64,000 nt of DNA from positions 3,182,866-3,246,865 of the forward strand of contig WARS01000044.1 in assembly GCA_008933995.1 (NCBI GenBank). Reading direction: 5' to 3'. Positions 3,001 through 63,272 of the stretch are shown here, piece after piece (within the stretch, counting starts at the first letter, position 1; each line of letters begins with the position of its first letter). A program made the position numbers and the translations under genes. The notes below the pieces were generated by a model. The model saw only the letters and a program-made list of their open reading frames with translations, was not told the DNA's origin and did no database searches. Source of the stretch: Datnioides undecimradiatus. Lineage: Eukaryota; Chordata; Actinopteri; Lobotiformes; Datnioididae.

Positions 3001-3403
3001 AGCACCAGCACCAGCTTGCATGAAGCAGTAAAACTGACCATATTTATAATGGAAATATTAGATTCTGTTAAGATAATAAACCCGGCACGTTTATAATTAA
3101 TACAACAGCTTCATTGGTCTCTGATCCCCCAGCGGCCACGCAGTGATCTATGATGTATTATTAACAACCGCACTGGGCGTCTGTAAACAAATTCACCACA
3201 TGGCTGGAGGCAGACAGCCACAACAATATGGCCTCTTTGTAGGGATGCTCCATTGGTCTGGCCTGTAAGTGATGCGAAGGGAAAATGCTTCATTGTCGGC
3301 AGCCTGATGAGATGGTAGTCGTTCGTCGTTCAGCTGCGCACTTGTTCAAACCTGACAAATGTTTGATTGAATCCTGACACCTGACTGGTGTCGGGTCGTT
3401 TAC
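1..3403 (-). other. intron 1 of the spire gene (partial)
   Basis: This stretch lies downstream, on the minus strand, of the exon-1 donor site at 3403/3402. I found no open frame resembling the second half of the KIND domain or the WH2 repeats, so exon 2 is expected left of the window. The sequence is AT-rich with a short GA run at 51-75. ORFs of 60-90 codons occur on both strands but none has family resemblance or splice-site support. Confidence 0.6.
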
Positions 3404-3749
3404 CTGTGCTGCCTTCAAAGTGCAGTCTGACAGTCCCGTCTCTCCAGATCATCACATCCCCGGGTCCTTCAATCCTCCTCGGACAGTCGACAGCCGAAGC
3501 GCCGGCAGACTTGGAGCTTTTCCTCCGACGTTTCTGCGCTAAAGTCCGACAACACTGATAACACACCGCCCATGCCTGTTCCTCGTTAATCGGCTGGCTG
3601 TACAGTTTTAGGATTTCCTCCAAGGAGACCTGAGTGGCTGCGTCGCCGCAGTCCATGTTCATGTCCCCGACGTTCAAATCGGCTGCGAAATCCCGGAGAA
3701 TAGTCGGCGAAGTCAGCATCCCGTCGTCAGTCCCCGGTCGTTTGGCCAT
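3404..3749 (-). CDS. spire1: Spire-family actin nucleator, first coding exon (KIND domain, N-terminal half)
   Basis: Spire proteins nucleate actin filaments through WH2 repeats, and their N-terminal KIND domain recruits formins for vesicle transport and oocyte actin meshes. The exon encodes about 115 residues. The hallmark KIND segment SLEEILKLYSQPINEEQAWA followed by VCYQCC is visible, and a WRDGTVRL motif lies near the exon end. The start is the ATG at 3749-3747, which has A at -3 and G at +4; the GTG six bases upstream is a weaker choice. The exon ends at a clean CAG/GTAAAC donor with one base of the next codon. Only this exon is in the window. The CYQCC and WRDG segments resemble spire1 more than spire2, but the paralogue call is an inference from recalled sequences. 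The 33 residues before SLEEI look lineage-specific. Confidence 0.85.
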
Positions 3750-3751
3750 CC

Positions 3752-3985
3752 TCACCTCATTATAACCACAAACCGTAAAAAGGGAAAAAACGGGAGGGGA
3801 TTGTCAGTAAATATTTCAGAGTCACTGTGACACTCAGAGACGGACGCTGGCCTCTCAATCAACTGTTTAATCTCCGGCGAGAACGAAGTGCACCAACGGC
3901 TCAGAGTGAGCGACAGCCAGCTCACAGCGTGCGCCGCGTGGTCCCAGTGTCCGCCGTGTAAAATACGCACGGCTGGCTCGTCCAT
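3752..3985 (-). other. upstream ORF in the spire 5' leader
   Basis: An ATG at 3985-3983 opens a 77-codon frame that stops with TGA at 3754-3752, two bases before the spire start codon. The first ATG lacks a purine at -3, so many ribosomes might scan past it. It can act only if transcription starts upstream of 3985, which the sequence cannot tell. I see no family resemblance in its product. It could reduce initiation or allow termination-reinitiation at the spire ATG. Confidence 0.4.
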
Positions 3986-20087: not shown

Positions 20088-20212
20088 GAAGGAGCTGAGG
20101 GGTTCAGGTGGTGGGGTTGAACTTCAACATCCCCAGCTTCTGCCAAGACCTGCTAGAGGTCTGCACCCATGTACTGTCAGATGCACACTGTTTGTTTGAC
20201 ATGGGGCTAGGA
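20088..20212 (+). pseudogene. orphan duplicated fragment of azin1 coding exon 6
   Basis: About 125 bases closely match the 3' part of azin1 exon 6 (near 23785-23910), including the shared CATCCCCAGC, CTGCCAAGACCTGC and ACTGTCAGATGC blocks and the few intron bases after the exon. Roughly 15 substitutions separate the copies. One extra base near the left end shifts the frame. The donor GT has become GC (GGGGCTAGGA against GGGGGTAGGA). Most of the rest has no stop codon. The match runs past the exon end, so this is a genomic duplication, not a retrocopy. No other azin1 exon was seen nearby. Confidence 0.85.
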
Positions 20213-20804: not shown

Positions 20805-21061
20805 GCATACTCATTGGTAGAACTGAACTGTGACCCCGCCCACGAGCCGTTGATTACCTTTTCCACTTCCCCCTGCTCGGCTTCAGTAGTTCCACCCATC
20901 AGCCGACGGAGAAGACGCTACTCAACCGACGCTCGTCCCTCATCTAAACATATGGCAAAAACAGCCCACTTTCTTTCTTATATCGTTGTGCCCACTACTC
21001 TTTAAAAATTCCGCCGAAAAAGAGAAGACGATTTTCCAAAACATTCTGGCCGTTATCTCAC
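20805..21061 (+). promoter_or_regulatory. azin1 promoter and first exon
   Basis: An inverted CCAAT box (ATTGG near 20815) and a GC box (CCCCGCCCAC near 20835) precede a stretch that ends at a consensus CAC/GTAAGT donor at 21061/21062. The transcription start itself cannot be read from the sequence. Exon 1 carries the start of the conserved upstream coding element described separately. An ATGGCGG element resembling a YY1 site lies at 21118-21124, just inside intron 1. Confidence 0.55.
20952..21005 (+). other. short AUG upstream ORF preceding the azin1 conserved uORF
   Basis: ATG at 20952-20954 opens 17 codons and stops with TAA at 21003-21005, two bases before the AUU codon at 21008. It matters only if the transcript starts upstream of 20952. 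Confidence 0.4.
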
Positions 21062-22058
21062 GTAAGTAATGCGAAATACTTCGGTTGAGTCTCTTGGATT
21101 CAGCAGGCGGACGTAACATGGCGGGCTAGTCTTTCTGCCTTCTTGCCGCACATGACAGACCGTTTCATTGAATTTTGTATTCTCGACATGGTAAACTTAA
21201 AACTAGTATTGAGTTATTAAACTATCCTAACGTCTAAGTCTGCTGTTTCTATTTGTTTATATTGGTGTTGATGTTTCTTTGGTGGGTTATTAACAAAATA
21301 CAGTGCTAACATAAACGCCTTCCTTCGACGTGCCAGTTCAACGTTAGCAGCTCTCGTTGCCAGGAATCTCTGTGCGGCGCGTTGCCTCGCAATGGCGTTT
21401 ACTATGTTCCGTAAAGCCGCACGTTCACGTCTTTAACATAACGGTTAATGACAGATGTGTTGTGTAAGCTTCATGTTATGTCTTGGTGACGCATCGCAAC
21501 AATAATAATAATAATAATAATAATAATATGCCACCCGTCAAGTTGTGACGCTGCTATCACTGTTTTATTTAAACAAATATCGCCGCATGTTGAGTAATAG
21601 TGTTTGAGATCGGGCGGCTGAGATAACGGTTAAATGATGATTTAGGAGGAAATAGCACACCAGGTGTTTATTGGGTTAAAAAAAAACAAGCCACGTAAAC
21701 GGGCCTGGAGTTGCTTAACATATCGATTTGGATTTCGGTAAAATTTTGCCCACAGTGAAAACAAACGGGAACTCACTGATAATAGCGGTAAATTTGGTGA
21801 AAGCAATAAAAATCGAAGCGACTGACCAGTTTAAAACGTGAATATTGCGTCTCGTGTGATTTCGCTTGTGGTAAATACACGACAAATGTCTCTTTATAAC
21901 GGATCTTTCACATGTGTTCTGATGTATTATTTATATTTATCCCTTAGGGCTCCCCTGTCTCTGCACAGGTGTATGAGCGCTACCCAGAGGGCCTAGGGGC
22001 GGCTCTTTACCGGGAGCACTTTGACTTCAACGCTGAGCCACCTTGGGATCCTAGCTGA
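21008..22058 (+). promoter_or_regulatory. azin1 upstream conserved coding region, non-AUG start, split by one intron
   Basis: Exons 21008-21061 and 21948-22058 join in frame into 54 codons plus TGA. The frame opens at an AUU codon with A at -3 and contains no in-frame AUG. It ends YREHFDFNAEPPWDPS. It is established that vertebrate antizyme inhibitor mRNAs carry such an upstream conserved coding region starting at a near-cognate codon. When polyamines are high, elongating ribosomes stall on it at a Pro-Pro-Trp motif, queue, raise initiation at the weak start and repress the main ORF. The PPW motif is present here four codons before the stop. The exon continues to the donor at 22091/22092, and exon 3 with the main AUG starts at 22516. 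Confidence 0.88.
21500..21528. repeat. AAT trinucleotide repeat
   Basis: About nine AAT units in azin1 intron 1. Confidence 0.9.
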
Positions 22059-22612
22059 TAGCGGGACAGGTCCATCTCCTGACTTGTCCATGTGAGTGTC
22101 TCTTCTACACAGAAAAAGACGCATGCTCAATTAAACACACGCCTCTAGCAAAGTCCAGGATCATTGTGCTGTGGACAGACTTTGTACAAGTCATGGTGTG
22201 GTTAAGCAGGTGCCTGAAGTTAACAAATTATTCAAGAAATAATGTTTTCTTGTTTTTGTTGGTACAAAGTTTTGTGAGATTATGAATAGAAACAATTTCA
22301 GTCTTGGGTTAATAAATCACAGATGATAGGGTAGACATTTACAAATGAAATACATTCATTAGTGATTATTTACTATCATTACTATTGTGGGGGTTTTTTA
22401 AGCACGGTATGAATCTAGGGTGATGTTTGTTAGCCATATGTCTGTGTATTTCTTTTGCCTGGTTCAATTGTTGTTAACACAGCCCCCCTTCCCTATCTCT
22501 CTCTCTCTTTTCCAGTTTGTTGCATACCGGCAGGACCCCATTGGCTCAGTCGTGACCCCTTGACTTGTTTATCTGTTCTTTATGATTGTTGGCTTAGCGG
22601 AATACGGTTGAG

Positions 22613-25600
22613 ATGAAAGGACTCGCTGACAAACCCAGCTACATCATTGAACTCCTGGAGGGAGGAGTGACCATTGAAGATGTCATTGATGGACACATCT
22701 GTGAGCAGGCTCTGGTCAGTTCAGTTTGAAGGCCTTTAATAGATTCAGGTTGCAGTTTGGGGAAAAAAACAACCCTAAAATTCTTAAATAGCTTTCATGA
22801 AACTGTAATTAGTGCCCGTCAGTGTTTTAGCCAAAGGTTAACAATTAGATGTGATTCTAATGGTTTGATCTATTGCTTTGTGTACTCAGTGTAGCTGTCA
22901 TCTTCTCTTACTTTCACAGGTGGAGAAGAATGCATTTGCAGTAGGTGATCTGGGTGCCCTGATGCGGCAGCATGCATGCTGGCAGAGCGTAGTGCCACAA
23001 TTGCAGCCCTACTACCCAGTTAAGTGCAACAGCAGCCCTGCAGTCATCGAGGTGCTGGCGTCCTTGGGCCTGGGCTTCGTTTGTGCCAACAAGGTAAGCT
23101 TTAAACTTCACCAAACCAAATTCAGGAAGCTTTGAGTTTTTTGTTGCTTTTTTTTTAACTGCACAGTGCATCATCCTCTTATGAAAGCACTTGACATTAT
23201 GGGGCAATTACATTACAAGCACTCAATTGATTACGGGCAGCTGATGACTGTTATCCGTTTAACTTATGAAACACACTTAATACCTTTTTGATTCTTTTTG
23301 AAGAGGCTTTTAGACTTTGTTGTGTCCATTTCTGTAACATTTTTGCCTGTATTTTTTTTGTCGCCAAGGCTGAAGTGAACCTGGTGCTGGAGCATGGTGT
23401 GCCACCAGAAAACATCATTCTGTCAGGTGTTTGCAAACAGGTGGCACACATCAAGCATGCTGCCAAGAACAACATCCAACATCTTGTGTGTGAAAACGAG
23501 GCAGAATTGTCCAAGATTTCCCGCTTGCATCCAAATGCAAAGTGAGACATCAAATCAAAAAATATTCTCCTGTCTTCCTTTAATTTTTATGCTTTTTTTG
23601 TGAAACTGAAGACTCAAAAATGCTATAAGGAAGAACAACATTTTACGCAACATAAATGTTTCATTAGTGTTTTGGTATGTTTCTTTTAGGTTACTGGTGC
23701 AGTTGACCACCCAGGCCCATGCGGCTGACACCAGCATGGCATTCGGCTTCTCTCTGAAGAGCTGCCGGCACCTGCTGGAAGCAGCCAAGGAGCTTGGGGT
23801 TCAGGTGGTGGGGGTGACCTTCCACATCCCCAGCTCCTGCCAAGACCTGCAAGAGGCCTACACCCATGCACTGTCAGATGCTCGCTGTGTGTTTGACATG
23901 GGGGTAGGAAAATGTATTTAATTACAAAGTGATGACTCAATTGGAGTTACATAGAAATGCTTACAAAGATGTGTACAGATGTTTGCCTTCCTATTTCTTA
24001 TGCTTTCTTTTTTTAGGGGTAACAACTGAACAAATGTTTTCTTTTTCTGTTCAGGTGGATCTGGGCTTTAACATGAACATCCTGGACATTGGTGGTGGAT
24101 TTACTGGTTCAGAGTTTCAGCTCAAACAGGTAAGTAGTTAAGAGCTGCAATCTGACCGGAAACACTTTGCTTAGACTTCAGAGCTGCAATTTGTCACTGG
24201 TTGTATTATTTGTTTTTATTCTTTCCTGGAAATGCCCTCTGAATGTCTTTTTGCTGTAACATTGTGTGCAGGTTGAGTCTGCAATAAGGCCGCTGCTGGA
24301 TGCTTACTTCAGCCCATTGTCTGGTGTGCAAGTGTTGGCCCAGCCTGGCAGCTTCTACGTGGCCTCAGCTTTCAGCCTGGCTGTCAATGTGATTGGCAAA
24401 AAGGTGGTGACCCGCCACTGGGACAGCTTAGCACAAGGTGAGTTACTCAGTTCTCCCAGGGGTTCTCTTTATCTTCTATAGTCCAGCTGTATCTGACCGT
24501 AATGCCTTTGTTTCTGTACATTGACTGTGAATATGAGCTAATAATGATATGATCTTAAAAATGTGTTTTGTCAAGATTTTTTACACATTGGTGTTGCATA
24601 ATGATAAAAATCTTGATCAAGCCCTCAGTTTGTAGATAATACAGTATATTCCATATATTTGACTTGGTCACCTGCTTTATTTACCCAGATGAGAACAATG
24701 AAGATACAGAGTTCCTGTACTACATGAATGAGGGTGTTTATGGCCCATTCAGCCACAAGCTGCTGGGAAACTCCATTGCGGCCCCGTCAGTGCACAAGGT
24801 TAGTAGGCCTCCTCCCAAGAGAGTCGACACCATTCAGGACTGAACGAAGTATCTGATAGCGGCTTGAGTTGAGTAAGGAAAGGGGGTCATGTATTATGAG
24901 TATTTAAGAAAGTGAGATCAGAATCACTTTGCATAGTGAATTATATTACCCCCTATAAAGACCCTACTGCAGGTTTTTCATACAAAGATGTGGTATTTAA
25001 GCTTGATATTCTCTCAGGATGTGAAAAGGTTAATGGCAGCTCAATAATTGTTTACTCAACTGTTGTTAATGATGCACTTCCTCCTCTATGCTGTTTATCT
25101 CACAATAATAATAAAATGTCAGGAACTACACAACATTAAGTAAAACTTAACTGTAGTAAACCAATAATGTAACAACAATGTAACAAGTTAATATAACAAT
25201 ATAACAAACTAATTTAAAAGTTGAATAAGAGATTGCTATTGAAGAAGAAATTGTTTTATAGCTGTTGTAATTCACTTCATGCACCTAAGACCCCTGGATT
25301 AATGAGCTAACAGTCATGGGCTGCAACCTCTTTACTAAATAATGTCTGTACAGTTTTTGGGTTAATGGCTTTCAATTAAGCAAAAGAGGTTTTGATACAA
25401 TTTCTAACATCTTGTAGCTACCACAGGCTCTAAATGATGATCCATCATATTATATAATTTATTATAATTTGATTTTATAATAATAAGAAATTATAATACA
25501 ACTGTTGTTTATTGAATACTTATGAATACTTTTATTTATTATATATTTTTTGTGATCCTTTTATGGTGCAGCAGAAATGTCATCAACTGGGACATAAGGT

Positions 25601-32365: not shown

Positions 32366-35300
32366 ATGTATCAGGTTCCTGTTGGAAATATTGAGAAGAT
32401 CCGAAAGGCACGCAAGGCAGTGAAAAGCATCTTAAGTGAGATTGGCCTGGAAGACTGCAAAAAGCTGTTGGAGGTGTGTTTTATCCTGGAAAAGAATTAA
32501 AAATGTCTTTTAAGATGTGGTAACAAATGCACAGATACTTTGTGATGATTTATGTGTGAGGTCCTATCAACATGTTTTGAGACCATGCCCATAAAAAGTC
32601 AAATCTATCCCTGATTTAAATTTGGCTGCAATCCCTTTGGAAGTAGTCACCTTGTGCAGCACTACACCACTGTCAGTGCTCCTGCCAAGCATGGATCACA
32701 CCCTAGAAGTCCTTTTTATGTAACCTTATAAAGCACCATCTGCAATCAACACTGGATGTTGTCTGGATCTCCTCCACTCTGCCAAAGCGGCGACCCTTCA
32801 GCTTGAACTTTATTGAACACCAAATCCTTGTTAAGTGTCCTGTCTGGTCTCTGACTCTCTGGTGATAGTGCAGCATCGTGGACACAGACCTGCAAGTTAT
32901 CACATAACAGCGTTTATCTCTGGCTGTGCATGTAATGACTAAGTGTTCCTTGGTTCACTGACTCAGGAGAGTTTTTTGATCACAACTGCTGCATGTTTTG
33001 TTACTGAGCTGTTCTGCTTTCAGGAACAGCAGAAACTGTCTGAAATCATTTTGACAGCACCCCACATATAATCGTTTCTGTCCAGAACATTGTCACTCTG
33101 CTCGTAGATCCAAGGCTAATAGCCCAGCCACCGCTAAAGGGGGTTCAGAAGTACAGTTGAATCATAACAAGTATGGCACTATGCATTACATGGGTCAAAA
33201 ACAATAATATATATATGGGCTGTGTTTGTTGCTGTATTACTGTACAGCCATCTTTATAAACATGCAAAATTTTAAAGTGATTCGGTGACATTCACGTTGC
33301 CATTCAGAAGGGTTTTTTTTCTTTGGTTGTTATGGCAACAAGTGGGGTTTGGACGATATGATGTCATGCCTACTGATTTTCTACTGACACAGGGAAAATG
33401 CTGCAAATCAGTGGGCAGACCTGCTTTATGGACGTTTGATGTACAGTAGTTTTTTCCATGAATGCATTAACATGCCCTGATTTGTCAAATGTTCTCATTA
33501 ATTTGGATATTTATGAATATTTTATTCCAGCTATAGCAACAAGTTAGGAAACAGATGACCAGAGCAGTGCTTAGTTTGATGGATGAAATCTTACTACTTA
33601 ACCTTAATTGTTTTATCAAAATTCAAACACCTGTATCAACTATTTTTCCATTACACTGCATCCATGAACATACAGTTTTACACAGTTAAAAACTTAACTA
33701 CATTCAGTGTTACATTTAGGTGGAAGCACTTTGATTTATCTAATGGCTGTAACTGCTTCTTAGATTATCTTTGTAGATTAACATTTTATATGACATATAC
33801 ACTCAATTTTCAGTTAATCGGATACACCGAAAAGTAAAACAGTTAATCCAAAGCTCACAAAGATTTTGTTGATGCTGTTCAGAGAGGTGTTGATTTAACT
33901 TACAGGTCATTTTGGGTGCTTTAATTTGTGGTGCTGTTGCATTGCATTGCATGAATTTTTACCCTGCACTCGTTGATATAAGCAGACAGAATATTAGAAA
34001 CTTCTCTTACTGTAATGCAATACGGTTTAGCCTCCAAAATGACCACAGAATTTGGTGAGTATATACTGTATGCTTTGCTACATGATTGAGACTTGTATTG
34101 TTTGCTGCTATTCCCTATTTCCTTAGATACAGTTCTTAATGCAGGACTTTTTAATGGGTTTGTTTTCCAATGCAGCACTGTTTCAGAATACTTTTGTGTG
34201 TTGTTTACTGTACAGAATCTCAATGAAAACTCTGAGAAAAACTCAGATGAAGATGATGCCTTTCGGGAAACTGGGTGGCTTGATTTCACACATGGGTACA
34301 ACAGCAGACTACAGAAAAAGGTGAATATAATACTTGACTCCCGTTCACAACTTTTGGTAAAAACCTTTGTCTGCAAAAATAAAAATATTAGCTAGTTCAA
34401 GCTGGGCAAATCATTAAAATTTTACTGATAAAGAGGAGGGAAGTCATTCCAAATTGTGTAAGATGTGTGGGTTGATATAAGTCTTTACATTATATGTTCA
34501 CTGAAATTAGCTGAAATACCTTTTCTCTCTCTCTATTCAGTGGCCCTATCGGTCTCGAGCTCTGTGCTGTAACCTGTGCAAGTACTCTTCACAAAACATC
34601 TACAACTTCAGGAGCCATGTCTCTCGCTGCCATGGATATGTGCAGTCATTCTGCGCACTGGCACCATGTTCTCAGTGCCTCTTCATCGGCCACCCCAAGG
34701 TTGTCAAGAAGCACATGCTGTTCTTCCATGCCAAAGTCAACACCCACGTACAGCCTCCAAGGGAAACATCTTTAGCCACGCATCGTGGAAATGAGAGATA
34801 TCAATGTAGAAGATGTGCGTTCCCATCCTCTTCTATCTTTGCAATGAAGAAGCACATCATTCTCAAGCATCTGGACCGTGTGGCAGAACAGTATATTGGT
34901 TACAGATTACACCTTCAAGGCACCACATCTGTAAAGGTCTACTGCTGCAAGGTGTGCAGGGTGAACACTGGAAATCTAGACCAAATGTTGCATCACATGC
35001 TGGTTGAGCCATCGCACTATTCGGTCAGCACACAAGTGCAGAGTATGATTTATGAGAACAAGAACTACACCATTAAATCAACACCCAATGGGAATGGCCT
35101 GTTTGTGACATTCCCAAGCATTGCTCCGAAACCACAACAACCTCAAATGTTCAACAGTAAGTCCTTGGTGTTACCAAGTAATGGCCAACCTGCTGGGACT
35201 GTAGTTGCATTACAGCAGTTACAAGGACCTACAAACAGTACTACTCTGATCTGTGCTCCTGGAACCAACCAAGCTTTTCTTCCCCCTCAAGCGTCAGCAC

Positions 35301-37267
35301 TAGTGCAGCTAGCTAGTGCTGAGGCAAAAGGTTTACTTCAGCCTGGTGCTACAATAGCCCTCCGAAGTGCTTTGCCCCAAGGACCATCCATGGTCCAGCT
35401 TCCCACGGTGTCTAACGTGTCTCTGAAACAGGCGCCGGTAGCTCTGACTCCTGCCTCTGCCCAACCACAACAGACTCCACAAGCACAGCAAATTATTCTT
35501 CCATCAGGACTGCAGGCCAATGTGGCAGCTGGACCTGGAACTGTATCCAAGCCAGCTGTGGTGACTCAAAATGCACCAACGAACCAAGTCACCCTACAGG
35601 GTACCATGCTGACTTCACAGTCTCTGCTGAGTCATTTAATCCCAACTGGCAACAAGATGAATGGCATGCCCACGTACACTTTCGCACCACTGCAAGTAGC
35701 AGTGCCTGTTTCTCAGAGCACAAGTACCCCTCTCAAAACTGTTGAGCAAACAAGTAACTCTGCACCACAAACTAAAAAGTGGATTACCTGTCCCCTCTGC
35801 AATGAACTTTTCCCTTCTAATGTCTTTGACATGCACACAGAAGTCGCTCACCAGACAAAATCCAACTCAAACAAATCAGAAAGTGTGGCAGCACGAGCAG
35901 CGTTCTTGAAGAAAATGCCTGACAAAACTGTCAAATGCCTAACATGCAAAATCCTACTATCAGAAAAAAGCGTCTTCCAACACCTGCTGCATGGCTTGAG
36001 TTGTTTGTACTGCTCCGCTTTGTTCTTTTCAATCAAACAGCTCGCTGAGCATGTAAAGCAGCATAATCCCACAAGCAAGGCATACTGTGATTTCTTAAGG
36101 CAGAAGTACAGGGTCTACTCAAAAGGTGTTGGAGGAATCCTGTTCCCTTACTTTGATGTGCACACCACCGCCCCAAAAGAGGTCTTAGGAGAGACAGAGG
36201 TCAATCTTGCCCTCGTCACAAATTCCCTCGACCTGATTTTCTTTAAGTTGCAGCCCAGCAGTCAGCCTGAAGTCTGCCCGGCACCTGTGAAAATCAACAG
36301 TTCGTACTGTCCCTTCTGTGATGAAAAGTTTGCAAATGAATCCAAACATCTTCAGCACCTGAAACAAAAACACTTTGTAGCACCCACCATTCATGCCATC
36401 CTCAAGACAGAGGCTTTCAAGTGCATATACTGCAATGGTGTATACACAGGAAAGGTCACGCAGCAGGCGGTGATGCTTCATATTCAGAGATGCCGGTGTT
36501 CACCAAAACAACCTCAGCCACCTAAAACTACAGCAGCACCCCAGCAGCCACCAAAACCAGCTCAGCAGGTCAGTCAGCCGTCCGGACTCTACTTTCTCCA
36601 AGTGCCACAAGGGCTGACCGTGAAACAGACTTTAGCTCCAGCTTGTGTGATCCCCGCTGCCACACCGACTGCAAAGCCTCCAGAAACAGAAGCTGAGGTG
36701 CTGTCTAAGAAGAGGCTGGAGGCTGCATGGAGGGAGGCCATTGAGGCAAACAAACGGGAACGGGAACAAAGAGCAGCCATACGCAAGAAGCGAGAGCACG
36801 ATAAGATGTTGCCCCCACAAGAGCCCGTGGTTCAGATCGATCCAACAGTAAAGCTTGTGTTGGAGCCCACCCCAACTGAGCGCCGCTGCAGTGAGGAACG
36901 TAGAGACTTCATATCCAATTACTTCAACCTGAATCCCTACGCGACCAAAGCCGAGACTGACGAGCTTTGCAAGAGGCTGTCCCTCACCAAGGCAGAGTTG
37001 GCAGCCCACTTCAGCAAGAAGCGCAGCAAGTGCATGAAGAGCCTGAAGAGGAACACTACTGCCGTTCTCCTCGGCTTCAACATGACAGAACTAAGCAAAG
37101 TCAAGCACAATCTCTTAATCCCAGAACCGCAGGGCGCAGATACTGCAGAGCAGCTGCCTGCTGATTCAACAGAGCAGATGGAAAACAGCGAGAATGGACC
37201 AGAACCGATGGATGAAAGTGGAAATGACAAGGTTGCGGATGAGGAACTGGTGGAGCAAATGGAATGA
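32366..37267 (+). CDS. adnp2: ADNP2, activity-dependent neuroprotector homeobox 2, complete CDS in three exons
   Basis: ADNP2 is a nuclear zinc-finger/homeobox protein related to ADNP, a chromatin regulator. Coding exons are 32366-32473, 34216-34320 and 34541-37267, all joined in phase 0, giving 979 residues (human 1131). The N-terminus [20 protein letters not shown] matches the family start. About nine C2H2-type fingers are spread over residues 80-620, including [25 protein letters not shown] and [12 protein letters not shown]. The segment [18 protein letters not shown] is characteristic of ADNP2 as opposed to ADNP. A divergent homeodomain lies near residues 855-920, followed by [18 protein letters not shown] and an acidic tail of about 45 residues ending EQME, longer than in the human protein as I recall it. 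Most of the protein is in the single last exon, as in the family. Confidence 0.95.
32555..32900 (-). mobile_element. remnant of a mariner-type transposase (C-terminal part)
   Basis: On the minus strand a broken frame reads [15 protein letters not shown] and, further on, [14 protein letters not shown]. These correspond to the conserved LKGRRF..VEEIQ and AAQGDYFEGD ends of mariner transposases. Stops and frame changes show it is dead. It lies in the first coding intron of adnp2, antisense to the gene. I could not identify terminal inverted repeats. Confidence 0.65.
33790..34040. mobile_element. interspersed repeat remnant in an adnp2 intron
   Basis: CACTCAATTTTCAGTTAATC, then GATACACC, TTCAGAGAGGTGTTGATTTA and TTTGTGGTGCTGTTGCATTG resemble a widespread teleost interspersed repeat as I recall it. 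The later ATATTAGAAAC...TGTAATGCAATAC part resembles a segment at 43480-43540. No protein-coding content was seen. The family name is not determined. Confidence 0.45.
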
Positions 37268-39836: not shown

Positions 39837-41487
39837 CTACTTCATAACTGTTCTGATTTGATCGAGGACTGAGGGCCCACTGTAGTTGTTGGTTTGAATA
39901 GCCTCCAGCCTCTTCAGGTACTCTAAAGGGAGTCCATTCTGCTCTGCACCCAGACACACCACCTGGTATGAAACACAGAGGGAGAGAGAGTCAATTGAAT
40001 ATGCTGATGTAGCCCCCAGAACACTCAGTCCAGCCAAAACACTGGACTGAACAAGAGGTGGTTTCGTTATAATTAGGGTGCAATATGTTGTTACTGCATT
40101 ATACAACTTTTATAGCATAACTCCAGTGTGTTGGCAGTGTTTACAAACACACACCTGTTTGTACTGGGGAGATGGAAGACAGGCATGGAAATTGTTCATC
40201 TGATACGTCCTGCAAAGAATCGGGCCCTTATCAGTCTCCACTGAAACCTCCAGAGGAGAGTACTTTCCCAGGCTCACACCTTCCTGCCTGAAACAGGGAG
40301 ACGAACCATGAATGTTGGTTAAAATAACCAGTACTATGAATGGTGAAACTGACTGACAGGCATTTGTGCATCTCACTCGTCCAGGCTTGTGAGGTTTTCG
40401 TTGCTCAGAGTCCAGATCACGCCCCAAACTTCTGCCCCTGGATGCCACTCAATGGTGGCCACTCCACCATGCCAAGTGTTGTCCACATGTTTCTCCCACA
40501 GGCCAAAGTTCAACTCATAGTCCTGTACACACACACAAACAAACAAGGGATGGTGATGGGGTAGGGGGTGCAGGACAAAAGGCTGTGAACAGGGAAGAGT
40601 CACTGTGCATTTTCAACAAAATGTCTTTTATTGCATTGTGACGTTAACAGTATTGTTAGTGTTTTCAGCAGTGTCCCTGCTCAGCCTGTTTGCTGCTGGT
40701 CATCACGTCATGGCCTCCCCACAGCGCACCTCGACCCTTTTGCTCTGGTTCTTTGGTCGTTTAGCTGAATTAGAATGAGAGCACAATGGACGGGGTCGCA
40801 CAGTCACTTGTTTTCAATACCGGGACATGGTGCGTTACTGCGACCTTTGACCAAACGGTGGGCGATGTACTTACGATATTGCCATGGTTACCAGCCATTG
40901 CGCCGTGATTCAAGGCTCCAGTTTAACTATTACTGGACTGTTTGAAATGTCACAAGTTGAACGGGCAAAAACAACAACAGCAACAAATATAATGTGTGGC
41001 AAGATAACCAAAATTAGCTATAATGTAAACGGAATTTAGTCGGCCAACAGAGATTACAACTAACTATTTACTTTGCTTCAGTGACTCCGTGATACATTCA
41101 CGGGCATCAACCTCACAGCTAATACGAGTCAATGCTGTGTTCAAGTACCGTGATGAACGACAGGCATTGTCTCAACTAGATAGAGTTCATACTGTTGGAC
41201 GTGTTAGTATAAGGTTGACACAATGAACCAATAGCTAGCGTTTACGTGACATGTTAAAGACACCATGAATCTACACGTACAGCAGGGTAATGGTGCTCAA
41301 AAGGTGCTCTTCCACGCGTCAGTAATATTGACAGCAATACTGTGAAAACCACTTCAAACAAATCAATTACCTTAAGTCGGCCTGTGGTGCAAAATATCGC
41401 CGATGGGTTAGCTAGTTGCAGTCTCTCCCTCAACAAGTTGCTTCCAAAAGCGAAATACATGAAGCGACCGTCGGCAGCACCGGACAT
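39837..41487 (-). CDS. ggct: Gamma-glutamylcyclotransferase, complete CDS in four exons
   Basis: GGCT converts gamma-glutamyl amino acids to 5-oxoproline and a free amino acid in the cytosolic gamma-glutamyl (glutathione) cycle. Coding exons are 41487-41371, 40522-40377, 40287-40155 and 39962-39837, giving 174 codons or 173 residues (human 188). The substrate-binding motif YFAFGSNLLRER lies near residues 11-22 (YFAYGSN in human). TWHGGVATI and EVWGVIWTLS follow. SLDEQEGV carries the catalytic Glu, residue 90 here and Glu98 in human. The C-terminal region GAEQNGLPLEYLKRLEAIQ is well conserved. The start is the ATG at 41487-41485; an in-frame GTG upstream at 41511 is not used. The protein is slightly short at both ends. 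Confidence 0.96.
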
Positions 41488-41559
41488 CCTTTTATATTCC
41501 TCCGTGGACACCCGCCGAGTGGACGAGACATATGAGTTCTGCTTGATATTTTAGGGATG

Positions 41560-49441: not shown

Positions 49442-52400
49442 TCACACCAGGTGCACCTGTTCCTCCCACTCCTCAGGCGATTGGTCCTCCTCTAACTGAA
49501 GGATGAGGTCTAAGTCTCTCTCTGTGGCCGGGGCAGTGTGCGTGGGACTGTCTCCAAGCTGGGAGTGTGAACATGGGTGTGTGTGCGCTTCGTCCAGCGA
49601 CAGGTCAGCCACACACCCTGCGTCCACACCCTCCTCGCCAGCCTCTCTGTTTTCCAGGTCCAGAGTGTTGGGTCTGGATGTCTTCAGGCCTAGCGCAGCC
49701 ACCGCACCGAGACGGGGGCTCGCCGACCCTTTGTCCGCTTCTGGCTCGCCCTCCAGGGGCTGCCAGATTGGGGCGGGTGTCACGTCCCTGGAGGTCTGGC
49801 TCTCTGTCTCAGTCTCAGTGTGTGTGTCAGGGGAGGAGTCAGTTTCTGTGGTGGGTGGGGAGGGAATGAGGGCTAGGCTCTGAGGGTTGTTCTGTGGGTT
49901 GATGTTGTTGTTAAACCAGGCCATGATGTTGTCCAGCAGCTGGGCACTGGCTGTGGGGTCCAGGGCCTCCAGACTCTGAGGGTCACTGGGGGTGAAAGGA
50001 CCCCCCGGAGGGATCACAGGTGAAAGCAGCAGCTCCGGCTCGAGCTCTGGAGACGGGAGGCACAACTGGGTAGGGGGCTGGGGGTCTGATTTGGGTGGGC
50101 GTTCAAGAGCGTAGGTGTTGGGACGCTCCTGAGTGTAAGAGCTACTGTGTTCTGTGCAGGGGTTGTAAGAGCTGTCTGTTTTTGGGGCACCGTCATATGT
50201 GGCTGCGTGTTCCCGATTATATGAACTGGGATGGGCCATGTTTTGAGTGCATTCAAGCACACCCGAGGCAGTGTGCTCAGCCTCAGCCAGATAAGCACTG
50301 GCGTGGCAGTAACTCTGCTCTTTGCCATCATAGCGAGCATCTGTGATGGCGATATGGTCGAGCATGTATGGGGTGGTCAGTGCGCTCTGGTCTTGTCTAT
50401 GGCTGCAGTCGCTGTACGTAGGTTCAGTGGAGTAAGGAGCAGTGAGTGTACTGTGGTTGTATGAGTGGTGGGAGCAGAGCTGCTCCTGTGTCTGTGTGTC
50501 CAGGTCATAGGGAGTGGTTATGCTCCCCAGTTTCATAAGGCTGTCTCCCAGCTCCAGCAGCTCTGCACTGAGGGAGGGAGGCGGAGGAGGGAGGGGGAGA
50601 GGGTTAGTTGTTGGAGGCTGGGAGGTGGAGTCTGTCCTGTTAGGGGGGCGAGGAGGATCTAGCAGAGAAGAGGGGAAGGGTGAGCCCCTAGCGCCAGGGG
50701 GACCGTCTGTGTTCAGAGAATGCAAAGCAACATCACCCAGGTCTCCTGCAGGACCTGGCCTCCTCTCCTGTCCTCTGTCCAATCCACGCTCCAGCTCTAC
50801 TCTCGCCTCCATCCCTCCCTCCAGGCCACGCTCTCTGCGGGACTCCTGAAGGGACAGCTGGATGGCCAGCAGGATGTTTGGGTCATCTTCATCCAGTGAG
50901 CCCAAAGCTCTCCTGCGGCCTTCACTTCTCTCTGGAGCGTCTGGAACATAAAATGTTGCATTAACACAAGCACTGCTTTGTATAGTTTGATTGGAAATTG
51001 ATCCCAGTGACCAATGCCACTGTGCGCTTCGACCAGACTCAGATTCATGAAGCAATAACTTAAAATCCCATTTGCTGGATGTCTGGTTTAGTGAGAAGTC
51101 AAGATTTACTGATACAGGCAAAGAATGGAGCTGGATAAAGATCCAGAGTTTGTGGCAGTATACTGCTATAAAAACATCAGTTCTATTGCCTATGGTTCTC
51201 GAGTGAAAACATGGCGTGTTCAGTTAATTTTCAAACTGCCCCACACAGTAAACACCTTTTTACCTTTTGGATAATCTTTTTTTTTTTTAAAAAAGGGTGA
51301 ATGTATTGCACATTAAAATGTTTGCCAGACCTGTGTTGTCACTCCTCCTGCTGGTCTCTGGGGTGTTGCTGCTGCTTCTGAGGTTGTGCAGACTCAGCAT
51401 GTCTCCTCTGCGCCGTGGCCTGTGTCTGCGGCGGTACTGGATGTCAGCATAATCCTACAAGGAATGATTCAAGCTGGGTTATTACAAAACCAACTATAAG
51501 ATCAGCGTTGTTAGTCTATTTTGTATCATGCAGGTTCACAATCAACAGGGCAAAACAGAATTTTAGCCCGTGCCCATGCACAAAATGAAATAGAGTCCGT
51601 TACCTGTGACTGTCTCTCTCGTTCTCCTGCTCCTAGTACAGAGTGACGACTCCCCATCTTAACACACATAAGCAAACTCAGTCAGCTGCAGCCATGGTCA
51701 TGCATTAGATGACTTAGCTCACTAAGTGCAGGTTTGGGGAATAGCATTAGCTGGGTATGAGCCACAAAAAAAGAGTGTGCGTTTCAATGTTGCAGGAGGA
51801 GCTTCTGTTTACCTCAGGGGAAGCAAAGCCGAGGTACTCCCAGTCCCATGATCCTCCAGGGTAACTGGAACAAACACAAGAATGTTTGCTCACAGTGACA
51901 CACGTGAAACAGTTAACGTCACACCAACAGTCATTTTTGATGCAGTTTGTAATCACATATTTATGCGTTTGTCATCTGTATCCCTGCCAGTGGAGGGAAG
52001 CAGAAGCAAACAAATCCATGCACTCTGAGTGTGTCCATACTTCCTGCGTGGAGGCTCAGGAGAATCATTGGGAGCGACGCCACGGGCCACTGATGCCAAG
52101 AATTCTTGCCTCTTCTGCTGCACCAGACGGGCTGCGCTGATTATCTTGTGGCAGGGTGTCCTCAGGTACGGCCGATTGACTTTCTGAGCCAGGTCCTCCA
52201 CAACCATCTCCAGGTCCGTCTTGGAAGAAACAAAAGATGACATGTTAACTTCCATGTGCTCCCAGACCGAAAAGGGGATTTGTCATCATATTCAATTCTA
52301 ACTATTACAGCAAAGACAGAGGATAAGTATATTTTGACTATTCCGTATCTCACAGGAGACTTTTGAAGCCAGATTTAGTGTCAAAAGCAAATGAATTGGA

Positions 52401-54029
52401 CCTCTGTTGGTTCTAATACTTTGACACCCATGACACCTACTCTGCTTAGTGCTATTTAATATCTATACAACTACACACTACTACTACAATAACAACTGCA
52501 AGCCACAACAATTTCCATGAATATTTATATGAATCATGGTCCTCAGGATAAGACCGTTCTGTTAATCCCTTGACCTGTGTTCAGCATCACCATCAGGCCA
52601 AAATACCAATTAGTATTTTAGAAAGAGAAAGTCTAATGGTCACATTACCAGAGGAATTTACAAACAGTACTTTGTTTGTTCTAACCAGTTTGGCCCTGTG
52701 TGGTTGAATGAACACAGCAGACTTTGGGGATAACCTGGGGGGGCTTTAAAGTTGCTAGTCTTGATATAGCAGAGCATAGATACAGGTCACAGATATGTAT
52801 TAGATTACCTGCATGAGCTCAAATATCTCTTTCTGGGTGCTGCCTTGTTGCAGGAAGAAGCCGTATGGGTAAGAGCACTTCAGGACTCGACGTGTCTTCA
52901 GCAGCTCACACACACCGTCCTCAATGAACCGCGTGTCAGGAGGAGTGCCTTCACCTGGACCGAAAAAGGAGGCAAAAACACACAAAGTGGGCTAAGCAGA
53001 GATTGGGTATATTTCTATTTTAGTGGCAATCTTTATTTCCTGTTTTGTTCATAATAAAAACAAAACTGGTTCATTCTAGTTCAGTCTGCCTCCACCTCTA
53101 GCGTCAAGGCTGGCCAGTCATTAAAGAAAATGCACTACACACCTCTGGTCAGCTGAAAGGAATACACTTAAGCAGCTAACAAGCTGCTAACATAAATGCC
53201 ACATATCTTCCCAACAACAAGCTGAGCACAGTCTGAGAGACTTACGACAAATGAAGGCTCTGCTCAGCTGCTCCATCTTCTCTTTAGCCGTTTTCAGCAG
53301 TTTCTGCTCCAACTAACACACGAGAGGACAGAAAACAGGTGATCCTCAGACTGTAAAGTATGACTCAAAAACATTTTAGGAACTCAAGCCAACTTTACAT
53401 CTTTCTAAGTCTTAGAGTGCATGTTGAGAGTGTATTACCTTATAACTGTGTTCATGGTTCTTGAAGCGAGTATAATAATGCATGAACCGGTCCAGCTCCT
53501 GAAAACTTTTGTGCTTCTTTTCTGCCTGAAATAAAATGCAGGTTGTTTTCACTCAGATGGCCTGTGTGAATACACTTTGCATGCATAGCGCGCGTGTGTG
53601 TGTGTGTGTGTGTGTTTGTGTTTTGATACCTCTACAGTCATTTCCTTGGACTGCTCCTCTAGCTGTTGGATAACCTCATAGCGAGTGCAGCGATAGTAGC
53701 CTCCTGTTGACGAGCTGTGCTTCTTCCACTCCTCCAGACAGATCCAGCAGAAGTCATACTTACACTACAGAGACAGTGAGTTTATATAAAAATAAAGAAA
53801 TAAAAATATAGAGTTAACAACAGACAGTAGCCACATCTCATTATCTATACAAATGATGACATGCAGCTGACAAAAAGATTAATGTGTATACTTTGGCACA
53901 CTGCATATGGTTGCAGCCCTCATTCTTCTGAATGGGCGACTTGCAGTTGGCACATGGTTTAGAGTTGGTCAACAGCCACAGGCAGTTAGCAGCATCCTCA
54001 TAGGCCTCACTCACACCTGCCACTGTGGG

Positions 54030-54071
<42 letters not shown>

Positions 54072-57000
54072 TAGCAACATCTCAATTGTGCAACACCTGC
54101 CCTGCAGAAACACCCTTCAGCAGACACATTTGGCAAATATCAATGACCAGAACACCTGCCACTATGTTATAAAAATACATTAGACACATCCTTGTAGGCC
54201 AACCTGACAGCTGCTGCTAACTGGCTTACTGTGGTGCCAGCTTACTGAGGTGCAGCTAAAATGATCCCCAGTAACACTGAAAAAAAGAAAAACTGGAAAC
54301 ACAAACAACACAAGAACAGACTTACACTCCTCAGGCTTCATCTCTGTGACTTTCTGGAGCCAGTTCCTCCACATCTGACAGTCACATGGCTCATGGGCCT
54401 CGCCAAGGCACTCCCTGCAGACAGGGAGGGTGATAAACAGAGAATTAGGTGCAGAAACAACATATCAGCTTGTTACTAGTTCCTAGAAAGAGAAGCAGAA
54501 AAAAACAGAGTAAGGAAAGGCACAGAAGATTGCAGTCAAATGTTCCAATTAAATCTACCTTTCATGTGTTTTTAGGCAAATCTTGAGTAAAATTAGACAC
54601 TAGGTTTGCTAAATGGCACGTCAGCAACAATATCAATGAAACAACTGTTGCTGTAAGTGCACAATTGTTTGTGTATGCAGCTGATAGATCATGAAGTGTA
54701 CCAGCAGAAGAGGTGACCCTTGCCACAGTCGACAGCTGGGGAGGGCAGCAGGGGGAAACTCTGTGGGTCACTGTCCCCAGGGCCAGGTCGGGTGAGCCGT
54801 ACTGCCCGCTCACACCGTGCTGCAGGACACCAGCGAATGGCAGGATTGTTCTCTACAAATGCCTGTAGTAGGGAGAGGAGAGATAACATAGAGGTAGGGG
54901 GGGAAGAAGAGCACACAAGAGCAGAAGCTATTGAGACATGCTAAAAAAACAAGAAGCAGCAAACTGAAATGAAGAACATTTTCTATACATATTCAGCAAG
55001 GAAAGACAACAGACAAGGGACAAAGGCACACAACATACATTTACAGTTGTTGCTCCACAAGAACATGAACACAGATATCTAAATGAATGAATGTATGTTT
55101 TGTTTTGTTTTTTTACCTTGATGTCAAACTGTAGATATCGCTGGTCCATCTCTCTGGAAACCACACTCTCAATGACATGCACCGGCACCAACTGGTAGCA
55201 CTCATAGGCCGGGCAGAAGATATTGTGTGCATCTCCCTCCTGAATCTTCACATTGAGAAACCTGAGAAACACATGATTACGCACATAGGGGAATTGATGG
55301 GTATACATTCAAACAGACTGAAGCATGAAGCATGTATACACACACTACACAGGTCCCTACCCTTCCCAGCATGCTCTGCAGAACTCATGTCCGCAGGACA
55401 TGTCCACCGGATCCTCAAACACTGAGATAGAGCAGAGACAGATTCCACACTGCAGGGAGACAGAGGACAAAGAAATCACATGATTTTCAGAAGTTGTCTG
55501 AGACTCAACAATGTCACAGCGATGCCTAATACACAACCATATATACTATTAACTTGAGGATGAATTAATTTTTCCTGCGGAGTTTAGAGAGTATGATGCA
55601 AACCAACCAAACAGACCTGCAATAAATCATAACTTTGTGAAGATGGCTGTGCTTAGTTCTGTGATAAAGAAAAGTCCATTTTTGAGGTCAAGATGCCGAA
55701 TCAATATGTAAGACTTTATCACCATTACATTGTGATATTACAGTCAACCAACATAATCCCATCCCGATGTCCTTTGACTCTGACATGACTTCACGTTTAA
55801 GGAGTCTAACAGCTTAAGGTCCAAACACTGTCATAGCCTCAAAGTTAAATCAAAGCCAGGCTTTGTGAGCAGGGTTATCAAACCTGCCTCAACAGCAACA
55901 GACTGATGTTTATGTGCAACCACAAAGGAGAATCATCGCTGGGAAGATGGACTCTGCCCTCTTTTATTCTCATAAGATTAGACATTAACCTGCTATAATC
56001 AATCTGTCAAATATTGAACTAGAATAAACTTTTGGCAAGACAAGTCTGAAATATATCCTCTAAAGTAACACATGACTGTCATTTTCAAACAGGGGATATT
56101 GAGGTCACAGCTGGTGGTTTGTACTTCATATCATGCAAGACTGGCAAGACAGCAAGGTGAGTGAGCTTCTCCTGATTTGAGGGGAAGAGGAAATCAGGTT
56201 GTACAACTGCACGTCAAAAACGATAAGAGAAGGAGGGATTGCTCACAGACAAGACAGGTAATAGACAAAAAGGTAAATAACTCATTTTGGGTTAAAGAGG
56301 GTTTAAGTAATGATTGGGTGTCTCACCACAGACAGACCCTCCTCTCCAGGTGTGAGGCAGCTGTCGGTCGGGGAGGTGAGGGTGAGAGTTAGGGGTGAGC
56401 GCGGGGTCCTGGGCGTGCGAGGCGAGGGTAATGTGTCCCAGGCATTGTATCCGCTGGGTGGTGGAGTGGGCATTGCCACACCTGAGCGCTGGCAGCAGCC
56501 CTCAGCGTCTGACATCCAGGCTTCCAGAAGCTTCTCTCTGTCCCAGTCTGAGAGAAAGTGAGGTCACGCGCACAAATTTAGAGGGAAAAAGTTTGGAATT
56601 CTCTGTGGACACCATCACAATGACAGCAAGAGTTTGTGAAGGTCACATGAATGTTAGCTTTCTCTAATAGGCAAACATACACACCATGTGCTCGAAGGAG
56701 GGCCTCAGCAGTGAAGAGGGGGGCTTGCAGCATGTCTGCTGTCTCTACAATCAACATGTCCTTCAGCCTGCGCAGATCCTGAAGCTTCAGTCCCTCGTAA
56801 GGCTGAAAAGGACAAAGTGGGAGAAATGTTAGAAAAACACAGAGAGAAATAAGAGACAGAGGAGGGAGAACTGAAAGAGACAGAGACGAGACGATGAACA
56901 GAAAGGGAGGGTGAGGGCAAGAAATGTCAATACAGAAACAGAAAGAGGAAAAAGTCATTTAACAAGAACAAGGAAAGTTTGAGACCGAGATATGTTTAAA

Positions 57001-60000
57001 GGAAGTGAAAAAGATACTGTGAGTAAAAAATGAAAAGGACAGGGATGTGGGACAGCGGGGTTGGGGGTTGGTGTTGGTGGTGGTGGGAAAGAGAGATTAT
57101 GTATTAGCATAGATTTGGCTGCAGGAAGAAAGATCAAACTGCTATCAGTTGGCAGCAGCTGCTCCTGGAAGTCTGCACTGGTGCCCTCTTACTAGACTTG
57201 TAAAAGCATGTGAAAAAGAAGAGCTTTTAGAGACATTCGAAGGAGAGTAGTGCAAATTTTGTCGTAGGCACTGTGGAGCCGGTGATGCAGATAAACGAGA
57301 AATTTAATCTGCTTGGGTTGTTGGTCCACAAATGAAAGCACAAAGATGCGTGCAGAATAGCATGGACTAGTAGCTACTAAGGTTTATGTACTGGCTGACA
57401 TTTCTTTGCTGGACTCAGCAGAAGTAAATCCAAGGTCGGATGAACATGAGTAACATAATGTAGAATGTCTTCAAAGTACTGATCCCATTACTGGTTTCTC
57501 ATTTGTTTTAAGGTATACACATGCTGTAGCGTGGCACAAGCTTGACTATTCACAATAACTTCCAAAACCATAAAACTTAAAATTTTAAATCTTATTTTCT
57601 GCCTTCACCACAGAAAACTGCGAGCAACAGTTTCATTTGACGTTGTGAGAGGGAAATGTTTACGCCAACACACCCACAAAGTATCAACAATGAAACAAAG
57701 TCCTTGGTTGAAGGACACTAAAATCAAGGTGACATCTTATTACCAACAAACTACCTAAATTATAATTATAAAAAAACATTTGATATCAAACAGAATTAAA
57801 TAAGAAATAAAAGTGACATTAACAGGACAAAACACAGGACGTAATGTTTCCCACCACTGTGAGGATGAGCCCAGTGAAGTGAATTCATCAAACACTTACT
57901 TGCTAAAATCTGTGACCTTAGAAAGTATAAAAATAACACATTCAATCTAAAATGAGCCAGCAGGGAACCCCCAGATCTCGTAACTGTGGTCTCACCTCTT
58001 TGTATTGCAGCAGGTTGGTTTCACCATGTGCGTCTGTGTTTGACTGCTGAGCTGAAGAGGAGGAGAAAACCATCTGTGACTCCAGGCTGAGGGCCAGCTC
58101 GGTGTGGTGATGCCGCTCGGCGTGGTCACATGGCGTCAACTTGTCCTCGTCTTCCACAAAAAGGTCCGCCTCGCTCTGGATTAGCAGCTAGAGGGAGGGA
58201 CGAGGAGGGAGAGAGGGGAGAACAAAAGGAATGGGAGGAAAATGAGAGAAGTGGATAATGGAGAGGAAGAAGAAATTGAAGGGACTTGCAACAAAAGAGA
58301 ACAAAGGAAGCAAGAGGCGAGCACAAGTCGAACAGACAAAGAGAAAATGGGAGGACACAGAAAGGAGAGAAAGAGAAAACAAAGATGTGATGTAGAAAAC
58401 AGAAAAGAAATACAAGAATGGGAGGAAGGCAACAAAATGCAAAGAAAATAGAGGGAGAAAAAAACAAAATGACAGGGACAAAAAAGGCACAAAGTGAAAA
58501 CGAGTAAATGCAGTTTATGTAAGAGCTGAATCAAAGAGGAGAGGAGGTAGATAACGTAGTGGTGAAGAGAGCTGTCTTAAAACATTTTATCTTAAAAAGG
58601 AGAATATCTGGGTTATTTTCCTCTGGCTGCACATATCAGAACTGAGTTGGATCTTCTTTCGAGCCAGGAAGTAAATTTTCTTCCTAATTCAAATGCTGAA
58701 AAACAAGAGAGGAAGGAATACTTGGATCTGACACTAATGAAACACAAAGCAGATGCTCCTGATGCAAGGACCGGCAGAATACTGTCAGGCAGATTTTACT
58801 GGCTGTAAAATCTTTGCCATATCCAATCTCACAGAGCACATGCAGATCTGCTGCTTGGAAGAAAAAGCCCATCCTAAAGTGAGTTCTGTGGGCCACACAC
58901 ACACTTTCTCTCACCTCTACACAGCTCTTCATGCCTGCAGCGGCAGCATAGTGAAGACAGGTGCTGTGGTGATTGTCAGTGGCGTTGACATTGGCCTTTT
59001 CATACTGGCCTCCCTCCAGCCTGGCACCAGTCCAACTTAAGATCATCTGGCAGTGGGGAAACCCACAAACACACATTATTTGTATGTCAACTTCATTGAA
59101 AACCAGGGACCAAGCTATACTATGTGTTTGTACCTGCAGGCAGTCCGCTCGACGCTGCTCATCCCTCTGGGGTCTGGCCAGTCGCGGGGACAGTGCACCC
59201 TCTGCGAGCAGCAGGATCTGTGGGCCTTGGCACAGCACATGGAGGCACGTCTCATTGTGCACATTACGCTTGTTGGGGTTCCCCTCTTTACTGAACAGGA
59301 AGGACCTATGTGATGCAGGTAACAAAAAAGGGAGTGAATAAAACTGAGAGCAAAACAAGTGTGGAGAAGTTCAGAAGTGAAGAGAGCAACATGAAGAAGA
59401 CTTAAATCAGAGGGTGAAAGGGAAGGAGGAGGAAAAAAGTGAAGCATACTGAAGAGAGAGAAAGACAGATGTAGAGAAGCTAGATATGAGGATGAGTGGA
59501 GATGATATGAGGATAAAGAATAGTAAAGAGATGAGTGTTGCCAGGTAAGAAGAGCAGCAAAGAGAGGGAAGAGAAAAAAGATGGCTGCATATCGACTATT
59601 TCTGTTTAACATCTCTGAGATAATGGACATGCTGGCTGGCTGGTGCACACACACAAATGCACAGGCACACACACACACACACACACACAGGAGAAGGTGA
59701 TGGATGTGGCAGTTGTCCTGGGAGCCTGGCTGTGGTTGCAGTTCTGTTTAGTAAATAGTTTTTCTCTGCCCTTTGTCTGTCAAAACCTCCATCTACTGAT
59801 TAGCTTTTTGCTCTTTCATTTGGCTCCACATGTCTCTGCGTTTCTGTCATTGTCCAGCTCTCCTTTTCTATCCAATAATCACTTCTGTTTTCCTTCTTAA
59901 TAATGTCCTTTTAGCATCGTGTTCTGTCTCTCTTACATTTGACATCCACTGTACAGTATCCCATGCTGTATGTAAAACTGCAGAGAAAAGCCTGTTCCTG

Positions 60001-62264: not shown

Positions 62265-62410
62265 GGCTTTAAGCTTGCTAAAGGCTGCCTAAAGGGAGCT
62301 GTGGCAGATGCCCGCCTGCCTATGCCTCCCTCCTTCTCCTCCTCCTCTTCCTCCTCCCCCGTTAACCACAGATCACAACTTAGAGCAACATGGTTCAGTG
62401 TTTTCCTGCC
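62265..62410 (-). other. 5' UTR part of the first ankib1 coding exon
   Basis: A TTACTTACAG/GG acceptor on the minus strand at 62411 marks the left end, in gene sense, of this exon. It leaves 146 bases of leader before the ATG and implies at least one upstream noncoding exon, which I could not place. Confidence 0.55.
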
Positions 62411-63272
62411 CTGTAAGTAAAACAGAGAGAGGGGAAGATTGATTAGAGGAAAGGGATGATGGAAAGAGGGACATGAGAAAAGGAAAGAATTGGAATGAAT
62501 GGCAGGGAAAAAAAGGTTGGTGAAGGTAGGAAAATGGAGAGCAAAATACCAAGACAGAAGACGGAAAGTAAAAGAGGAGAGAGACGGATGGAAAGGGAGA
62601 CACAGAGAGAGCAGCTCAATCAATCAGTCCATCCATCGATCAGCTGATGCGCTGCAGGGAGGATGTTATCTTACCGGAAATAGAGGGGGAAACAGAGGGA
62701 AAGAAGAAAGAGGCTAGAAAGACAAAGAGATAATTATAAAGAGGGCAGACGAGAGGGGAAGGTTAATGATATCCAGGCCATCGATTTGTAAGTCAGTTGA
62801 TGAAAGGCACGGTCAATATTACCACAGCTGGCCACCGCGAGTCCAGTCAGCCCGTGTTTGTGAGGAATTTGCATATTTTAGGCTGTTTACATGCTTGTCT
62901 GCCACTGGAGATATGAGCGTCTGAGTGTGTGTTAAACCATGCAGCGCTAATACACTGGGCCAAAAACCAGTTTTACTTTTCCTCTCAGGTGCTAAACCAA
63001 AGAATCACAGGAATCGCAGCTATGGCTGCCGCAGCTGAGTTTACTCTGCAGCAACAGCTTCCAAACCTGTGGTTGATTCACAAGTTATTGTGATCTTTTT
63101 GAATCTACTTTATTTGTGCAATTTTAATATAATATGCAAAATAAGAGTAATAACAGTGTGGGGAAAAGGAACAGATATGAGAAACAAACACACTAGTTCT
63201 TGCATTCTTACATATTGTATATAATCTCTGTCTTTATCAATGTATTCCAGTTCATTTCCTTCCTTCATTTTC

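Follow-up and report, generated by a model that had tools for sequence, protein, structure and literature searches.

According to the available text of PMC4458265, every vertebrate antizyme inhibitor (AzI) mRNA available at the time has an upstream coding region (uCC) of about 50 codons, which contains no AUG and has a conserved AUU. In the mouse, mutation of the AUU abolished the repression by polyamines, and so did mutation of the last 10 sense codons (PMC4458265). In the portions available of PMC9082881, PMC8705083 and PMC11058473, high polyamines are described to impair eIF5A at a Pro-Pro-Trp (PPW) motif, with ribosomes pausing and queuing and initiation at the AUU increasing.

Among other described systems, the uORF of yeast HOL1, likewise a polyamine gene, ends in Pro-Ser-stop, and high polyamines impair HOL1 termination according to the account available. 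Both uCC copies presented here also end in Pro-Ser-stop and resemble the HOL1 PS-stop motif, the comparison being made by motif alone. However, HOL1 differs in gene and kingdom, and the established pause of azin1 is the PPW. For ATF4 uORF2, an RNA stem-loop has been proposed to cause ribosome queuing on the leader (PMC11058473), but both the gene and the signal are different, and the part of the source available describes no PPW motif. The human AZIN1 5' leader includes AZIN15Q1, a G2-quadruplex/hairpin that responds to polyamines, as far as it is described in the available text of PMC6067879.

The locus described here is situated in a window of 64,000 nucleotides of Datnioides undecimradiatus, the whole stretch of DNA that was analysed. 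Its uCC is the expected copy of the already known element. As in the available descriptions of the vertebrate AZIN1 uCC, it belongs to the same gene, starts with AUU, lacks an in-frame AUG, comprises about 50 codons and has PPW near its C terminus, and the comparison showed no feature distinguishing the element of the window. The finding is an ordinary one, since a vertebrate uCC with a conserved AUU, as well as PPW pausing and queuing, are already in print. An initial annotation had named the stretch an azin1 uCC, and the element proved real and rightly named, as indicated by the frame, the AUU, the PPW end and a second copy of the gene (L009) in the same genome. The stretch is very probably an azin1 uCC working by the published mammalian polyamine feedback, the mechanistic part being carried over from that work.

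The azin1 gene and its upstream coding region

The main ORF was identified as AZIN1. Its best phmmer matches were antizyme inhibitor 1 (4zgz, E 2.8e-109; 3btn, E 4.8e-109), followed by ODC chains, the best of them at E 8.2e-86, and the joined coding exons gave a Pfam match to Orn_Arg_deC_N. The phmmer and Pfam analyses of the joined coding exons place the first coding exon at 22613..22714 on the plus strand, which is also the strand of all leader features given below. Leader exon 2 ends at 22091 and exon 3 starts at 22516, its leader part covering positions 22516..22612 and its acceptor context TTTGTTGCATA being common to L009. After splicing, 130 nt separate the uCC stop from the main AUG (22613). 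An azin1 coding exon (23787-23909) has a partial copy of 124 bp upstream of leader exon 1, at 20089-20212, on the same strand and with 88.7% identity. The copy looks like a decaying duplicate, because its splice-donor GT reads CT by eye.

The uCC frame is preceded by an in-frame stop at 20945. When ten types of start-like codons were looked for between this stop and the frame end, only ATT at 21008, AAG at 21020 and GTG at 21969 were found. The number of in-frame ATG codons was zero, in agreement with the AUG-less frame and the position of the AUU in the initial annotation. The AUU (21008..21010), which is the presumed start codon, has A at -3 and belongs to the block TTTAAAAATTCCGCC, identical in both copies. 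Exon 1 of the uCC consists of 18 codons, IPPKKRRRFSKTFWPLSH (21008..21061), as does exon 1 of L009, and is followed by the 5' splice site GTAAGT of intron 1 (21062..21067), with the donor sequence GTAAGTAA present in both the window and L009.

Exon 2 of the uCC (21969..22058) includes the 29 codons VYERYPEGLGAALYREHFDFNAEPPWDPS and TGA. Its end reads AEPPWDPS, as had been claimed, and is closed by the TGA at 22056-22058. The codons CCA CCT TGG (22038..22046), at which the Pro-Pro-Trp pause is predicted, are identical in L009, and so are the Pro-Ser-stop end CCT AGC TGA and the second in-frame stop TAG after it (22050..22061). The intron splits the element after codon 18, as described earlier, and the intron of L009 is at the same codon boundary. 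Also the view that splicing is needed for the sensor holds: if intron 1 is retained, the frame meets a stop after 26 codons, without the PPW.

The two exons had been joined in frame into 54 codons, and of this the in-frame join stands but the number of codons is probably wrong for the conserved form. Two acceptors are in frame, the upstream one (TTAG before 21948) giving 54 codons and the second one (GCACAG before 21969) 47 codons. Only 21969 has a counterpart in L009, with both copies reading 18 + 29 = 47 codons, and the conserved uCC is therefore one of 47 codons. The seven in-frame codons GSPVSAQ (21948..21968), which are present in the mRNA only with the upstream acceptor, are without a counterpart in L009. 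Use of acceptor 21948 in the window gene, giving 54 codons with GSPVSAQ in the middle of the peptide, or production of both forms by alternative splicing is less likely. The upstream AG is the first one after the intron, both acceptors keep the frame, and a home-made matrix of 14 sites does not separate 21948 from 21969, giving similar scores (6.05 and 5.89) that are lower than those of every training site. Against this stands the paralogue, which has the downstream acceptor only and 47 codons. The 47-codon uCC is thus taken as the conserved form and the 54-codon one as a possible alternative form of the window gene. The distance from the AUU to the second Pro is 42 codons in the 47-codon form and 49 in the 54-codon form, against about 30 codons from the AUU to the stall in the known element, as given in the available part of one review (PMC9082881). 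An AUG inside exon 2 at 21973 (MSATQRA) was discarded as a candidate; the paralogue has no equivalent of it.

The second azin1 copy and conservation

The genome (581 Mb) was searched for every DNA spelling of PPWDP, which is encoded once in the six frames of the window. The search gave 60 places, one of them that of the window, and a reversed control pattern also gave 60 places in the same genome. The translated surroundings of the other 59 places were all scored against the exon 2 peptide (67 rows, 8 places being present twice). L009 (on C307) scored 141 and the next best place 47, and among the 60 places only those of the window and L009 were uCC-like. Two places, G000 C471:1445990 and C472:1446226, have PPWDP at nearly the same position in contigs of nearly the same length and with the same flanking translation, and because of this agreement part of the assembly may be present twice. 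No relatives were confirmed in viral contigs or in bacterial and archaeal genomes, which is expected for an animal leader, and a literature text search for the string EPPWDP produced no match.

L009 is a second azin1 gene, as its first three main-ORF exon pieces, when joined, had AZIN1 as their best match in the PDB (E 5.1e-57). In its leader an ATT is found at L009:4170 within the identical 15-mer, and the donor, the length of exon 1 and the position of the intron are shared with the window. An apparent second exon 1 copy far upstream in the paralogue (L009 ~3340) was rejected, 10 of 300 shuffles aligning as well. Exon 2 of L009 includes 29 codons, VYNNYPEDLGAALYREPFDFNAEPPWDPS, with the same PPWDPS end and the same two stops.

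Between the window and L009, 25 of the 29 residues of exon 2 are identical, with pN 0.096, pS 0.287 and no change in length. Exon 1 has seven identical residues out of 18, six of these among the first eight, and is for the most part poorly conserved after codon 8. The four main-ORF exon stretches compared share 120 of 196 residues, with pN ranging from 0.20 to 0.32 and pS from 0.57 to 0.79. The uCC exon 2 is better conserved than these AZIN1 stretches, synonymous sites included. This conservation evidence consists of two azin1 copies of one genome, and the homology to the mammalian uCC is by description only.

The gene that has the uCC in its 5' leader encodes an antizyme inhibitor, and the leader exons are conserved between the two copies. 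Its length is 47 (or 54) codons vs about 50, with no in-frame ATG and with ATT as codon 1, and both copies have PPWDPS-stop near the C terminus. The open frame alone is weak evidence, as 12% of the sequences made by shuffling the bases of the 54 codons also stay open.

Predicted RNA structure of exon 2

Exon 2 was folded because its pS was low. Both copies folded to the same consensus structure over exon 2, the structure being derived from these two sequences. A long hairpin is predicted over the exon 2 codons at 21979..22062, in which the codons of YPEGLGAAL pair with those of PPWDPS-stop-stop. Both copies keep every one of the 26 consensus pairs, including one double change and two compatible single changes between them. 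A second predicted hairpin, of 9 bp, is placed at 22064..22089. It begins 5 nt downstream of the uCC stop, and 2 nt lie between it and the end of leader exon 2. Of its nine pairs, five are the same in both copies, two differ by a compatible single change, one has changed on both sides and one is broken.

In column shuffles, which preserve base and conservation classes and not dinucleotides, the whole exon 2 reached z -3.9 (0/500 as good), the coding part (columns 1-94) z -2.3 (12/500) and the post-stop part (columns 95-123) z -5.8 (0/500). The post-stop signal was weaker when ten more columns were included (columns 85-123; z -3.5, 3/500 as good). Seven other regions analysed with the same method had z values between -1.6 and +2.2. 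Among 62 control windows of 29 columns the minimum was -3.4, compared with -6.2 for the post-stop window; exon 2 is 82% alike between the copies vs 55-68% in the controls, so that the method has more power in exon 2. With dinucleotide shuffles the whole exon 2 gave z -2.0 in the window and -2.3 in the paralogue (5 and 2 of 200 as good), and the coding part z only -0.8 and -1.2 (38 and 17 of 200). A 3'-letter shuffle on the 9-bp hairpin was powerless with two sequences, 140 of 500 shuffles reaching the observed values.

The RNA around the uCC end may, as modelled here, be conserved in shape. The exon 2 hairpins, predicted from two sequences, are possibly new; the available descriptions of the vertebrate AZIN1 uCC mention neither hairpins nor an abutting AUG uORF. 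The two matches from Rfam fell far short of the gathering score and were taken as chance. MIR2907 at 21947-22005, overlapping the start of exon 2, was rejected with 25.8 bits vs the gathering score of 60 (E 0.027). The four-GG pattern of the AZIN15Q1 type is present in exon 2 of the window and absent from that of the paralogue, with other leader matches in each copy, and a G-quadruplex was rejected as the cause of the exon 2 conservation.

The predicted 9-bp hairpin (22064-22089) could also serve the splicing of intron 2 and not translation, which is rather unlikely. The 5' splice site lies 2 nt beyond its 3' end, and polyamines are reported to alter the splicing of mammalian AzI, though the variant described in the available parts of PMC4458265 and PMC6313458 truncates the main ORF. 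However, the hairpin follows the uCC stop equally closely and could act on ribosomes there.

It is very improbable that the leader is conserved for its RNA structure instead of for a translated peptide. The low synonymous divergence of exon 2 in comparison to the main-ORF stretches (pS 0.287 vs 0.57-0.79) and the fold common to both copies speak for such conservation, and 13 (window) and 27 (paralogue) of 1000 synonymous recodings folded as well as the natural sequences. Yet exon 2 has a lower pN (0.096) than pS, both copies keep the frame open, and unchanged in length, over the common intron, and permutations of the existing codons of the coding part were as good in 63 of 500 cases in the window and 8 of 500 in the paralogue. 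Also the published mouse mutations of the AUU and the last codons abolish the response, according to the text available of PMC4458265.

AUG uORFs in the leader

An AUG uORF of 17 codons, MAKTAHFLSYIVVPTTL (20952..21005), has its stop ending 2 nt before the AUU. In L009, a uORF of 14 codons, MALILFSISNPTTV (L009:4123-4167), also ends 2 nt before its ATT, and both of these uORFs begin with MA and have PTT followed by L or V at the end. By chance an AUG frame would be open before the AUU with a probability of about 0.23 per copy, and the adjoining uORF is for this reason treated as a lead only. The uORF is inside the mRNA only if transcription starts upstream of it; as a sequence feature it is possibly new. 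The TTTAAAA before the AUU could be read as a TATA-like core promoter element, with transcription starting downstream of the AUU and exon 1 misdrawn, as the two copies agree fully in the block TTTAAAAATTCCGCC and are little alike upstream of it, but this is hardly credible, since the conserved block continues into the IPPKK codons and the published uCC begins at the conserved AUU (PMC4458265, in the text available).

A further AUG uORF, of nine codons (MIVGLAEYG-stop; 22582..22611), ends 1 nt before the main AUG. In L009, MPVGLEENG-stop (L009:6517-6546) ends 4 nt before the main AUG of that gene. Between these two uORFs there are two synonymous codon differences and three that replace a residue.

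Other genes in the window

An ADNP-like zinc-finger protein is encoded at 34511-37266 on the plus strand (Pfam ADNP_N, E 5.9e-41), and an ORF with a KIND domain is present at 3330-3803 on the minus strand (Pfam, E 1.8e-26). Also on the minus strand, the regions 41254-41550 and ~49442-62600 include what we take, by eye, to be gamma-glutamylcyclotransferase-like and ANKIB1-like pieces. Four ORFs from these two regions had no Pfam match.

Proposed mechanism

The features that can be tested from the sequence support a fit to the published mammalian mechanism, with the polyamine response, the use of the AUU and the pausing assigned by analogy. Following that mechanism, most scanning ribosomes would skip the weak AUU when polyamines are low, and AZIN1 would be translated. 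When polyamines are high, the function of eIF5A at Pro-Pro-Trp would be impaired and the ribosome on the uCC would pause. The queue of scanning ribosomes would then back up to the AUU and lead to more starts there, by which the AZIN1 output would fall and the feedback loop would be closed. Splicing of intron 1 would join the AUU to the PPW.

Where the uCC ends, the block may be made stronger by the Pro-Ser-stop together with the hairpin that follows it; this part is our own and the least certain. The hairpin 3' of the stop would, we infer, meet the ribosome at the last uCC codons. On a tentative and rather doubtful view, the sensor would be a composite one and not the peptide alone: the AUG uORF ending 2 nt before the AUU may deliver ribosomes, the PPW, the Pro-Ser-stop and the hairpin 5 nt after the stop may together form a graded block set by polyamines, and the long hairpin may hold the synonymous sites of exon 2.

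In one genome, both azin1 copies carry a nearly intact two-exon uCC. The queuing model depends on exact codon numbers, as the distance from the AUU to the pause (42 or 49 codons) sets how many ribosomes fit between them. If the hairpins recur in other species, an RNA component would be added to the PPW mechanism.
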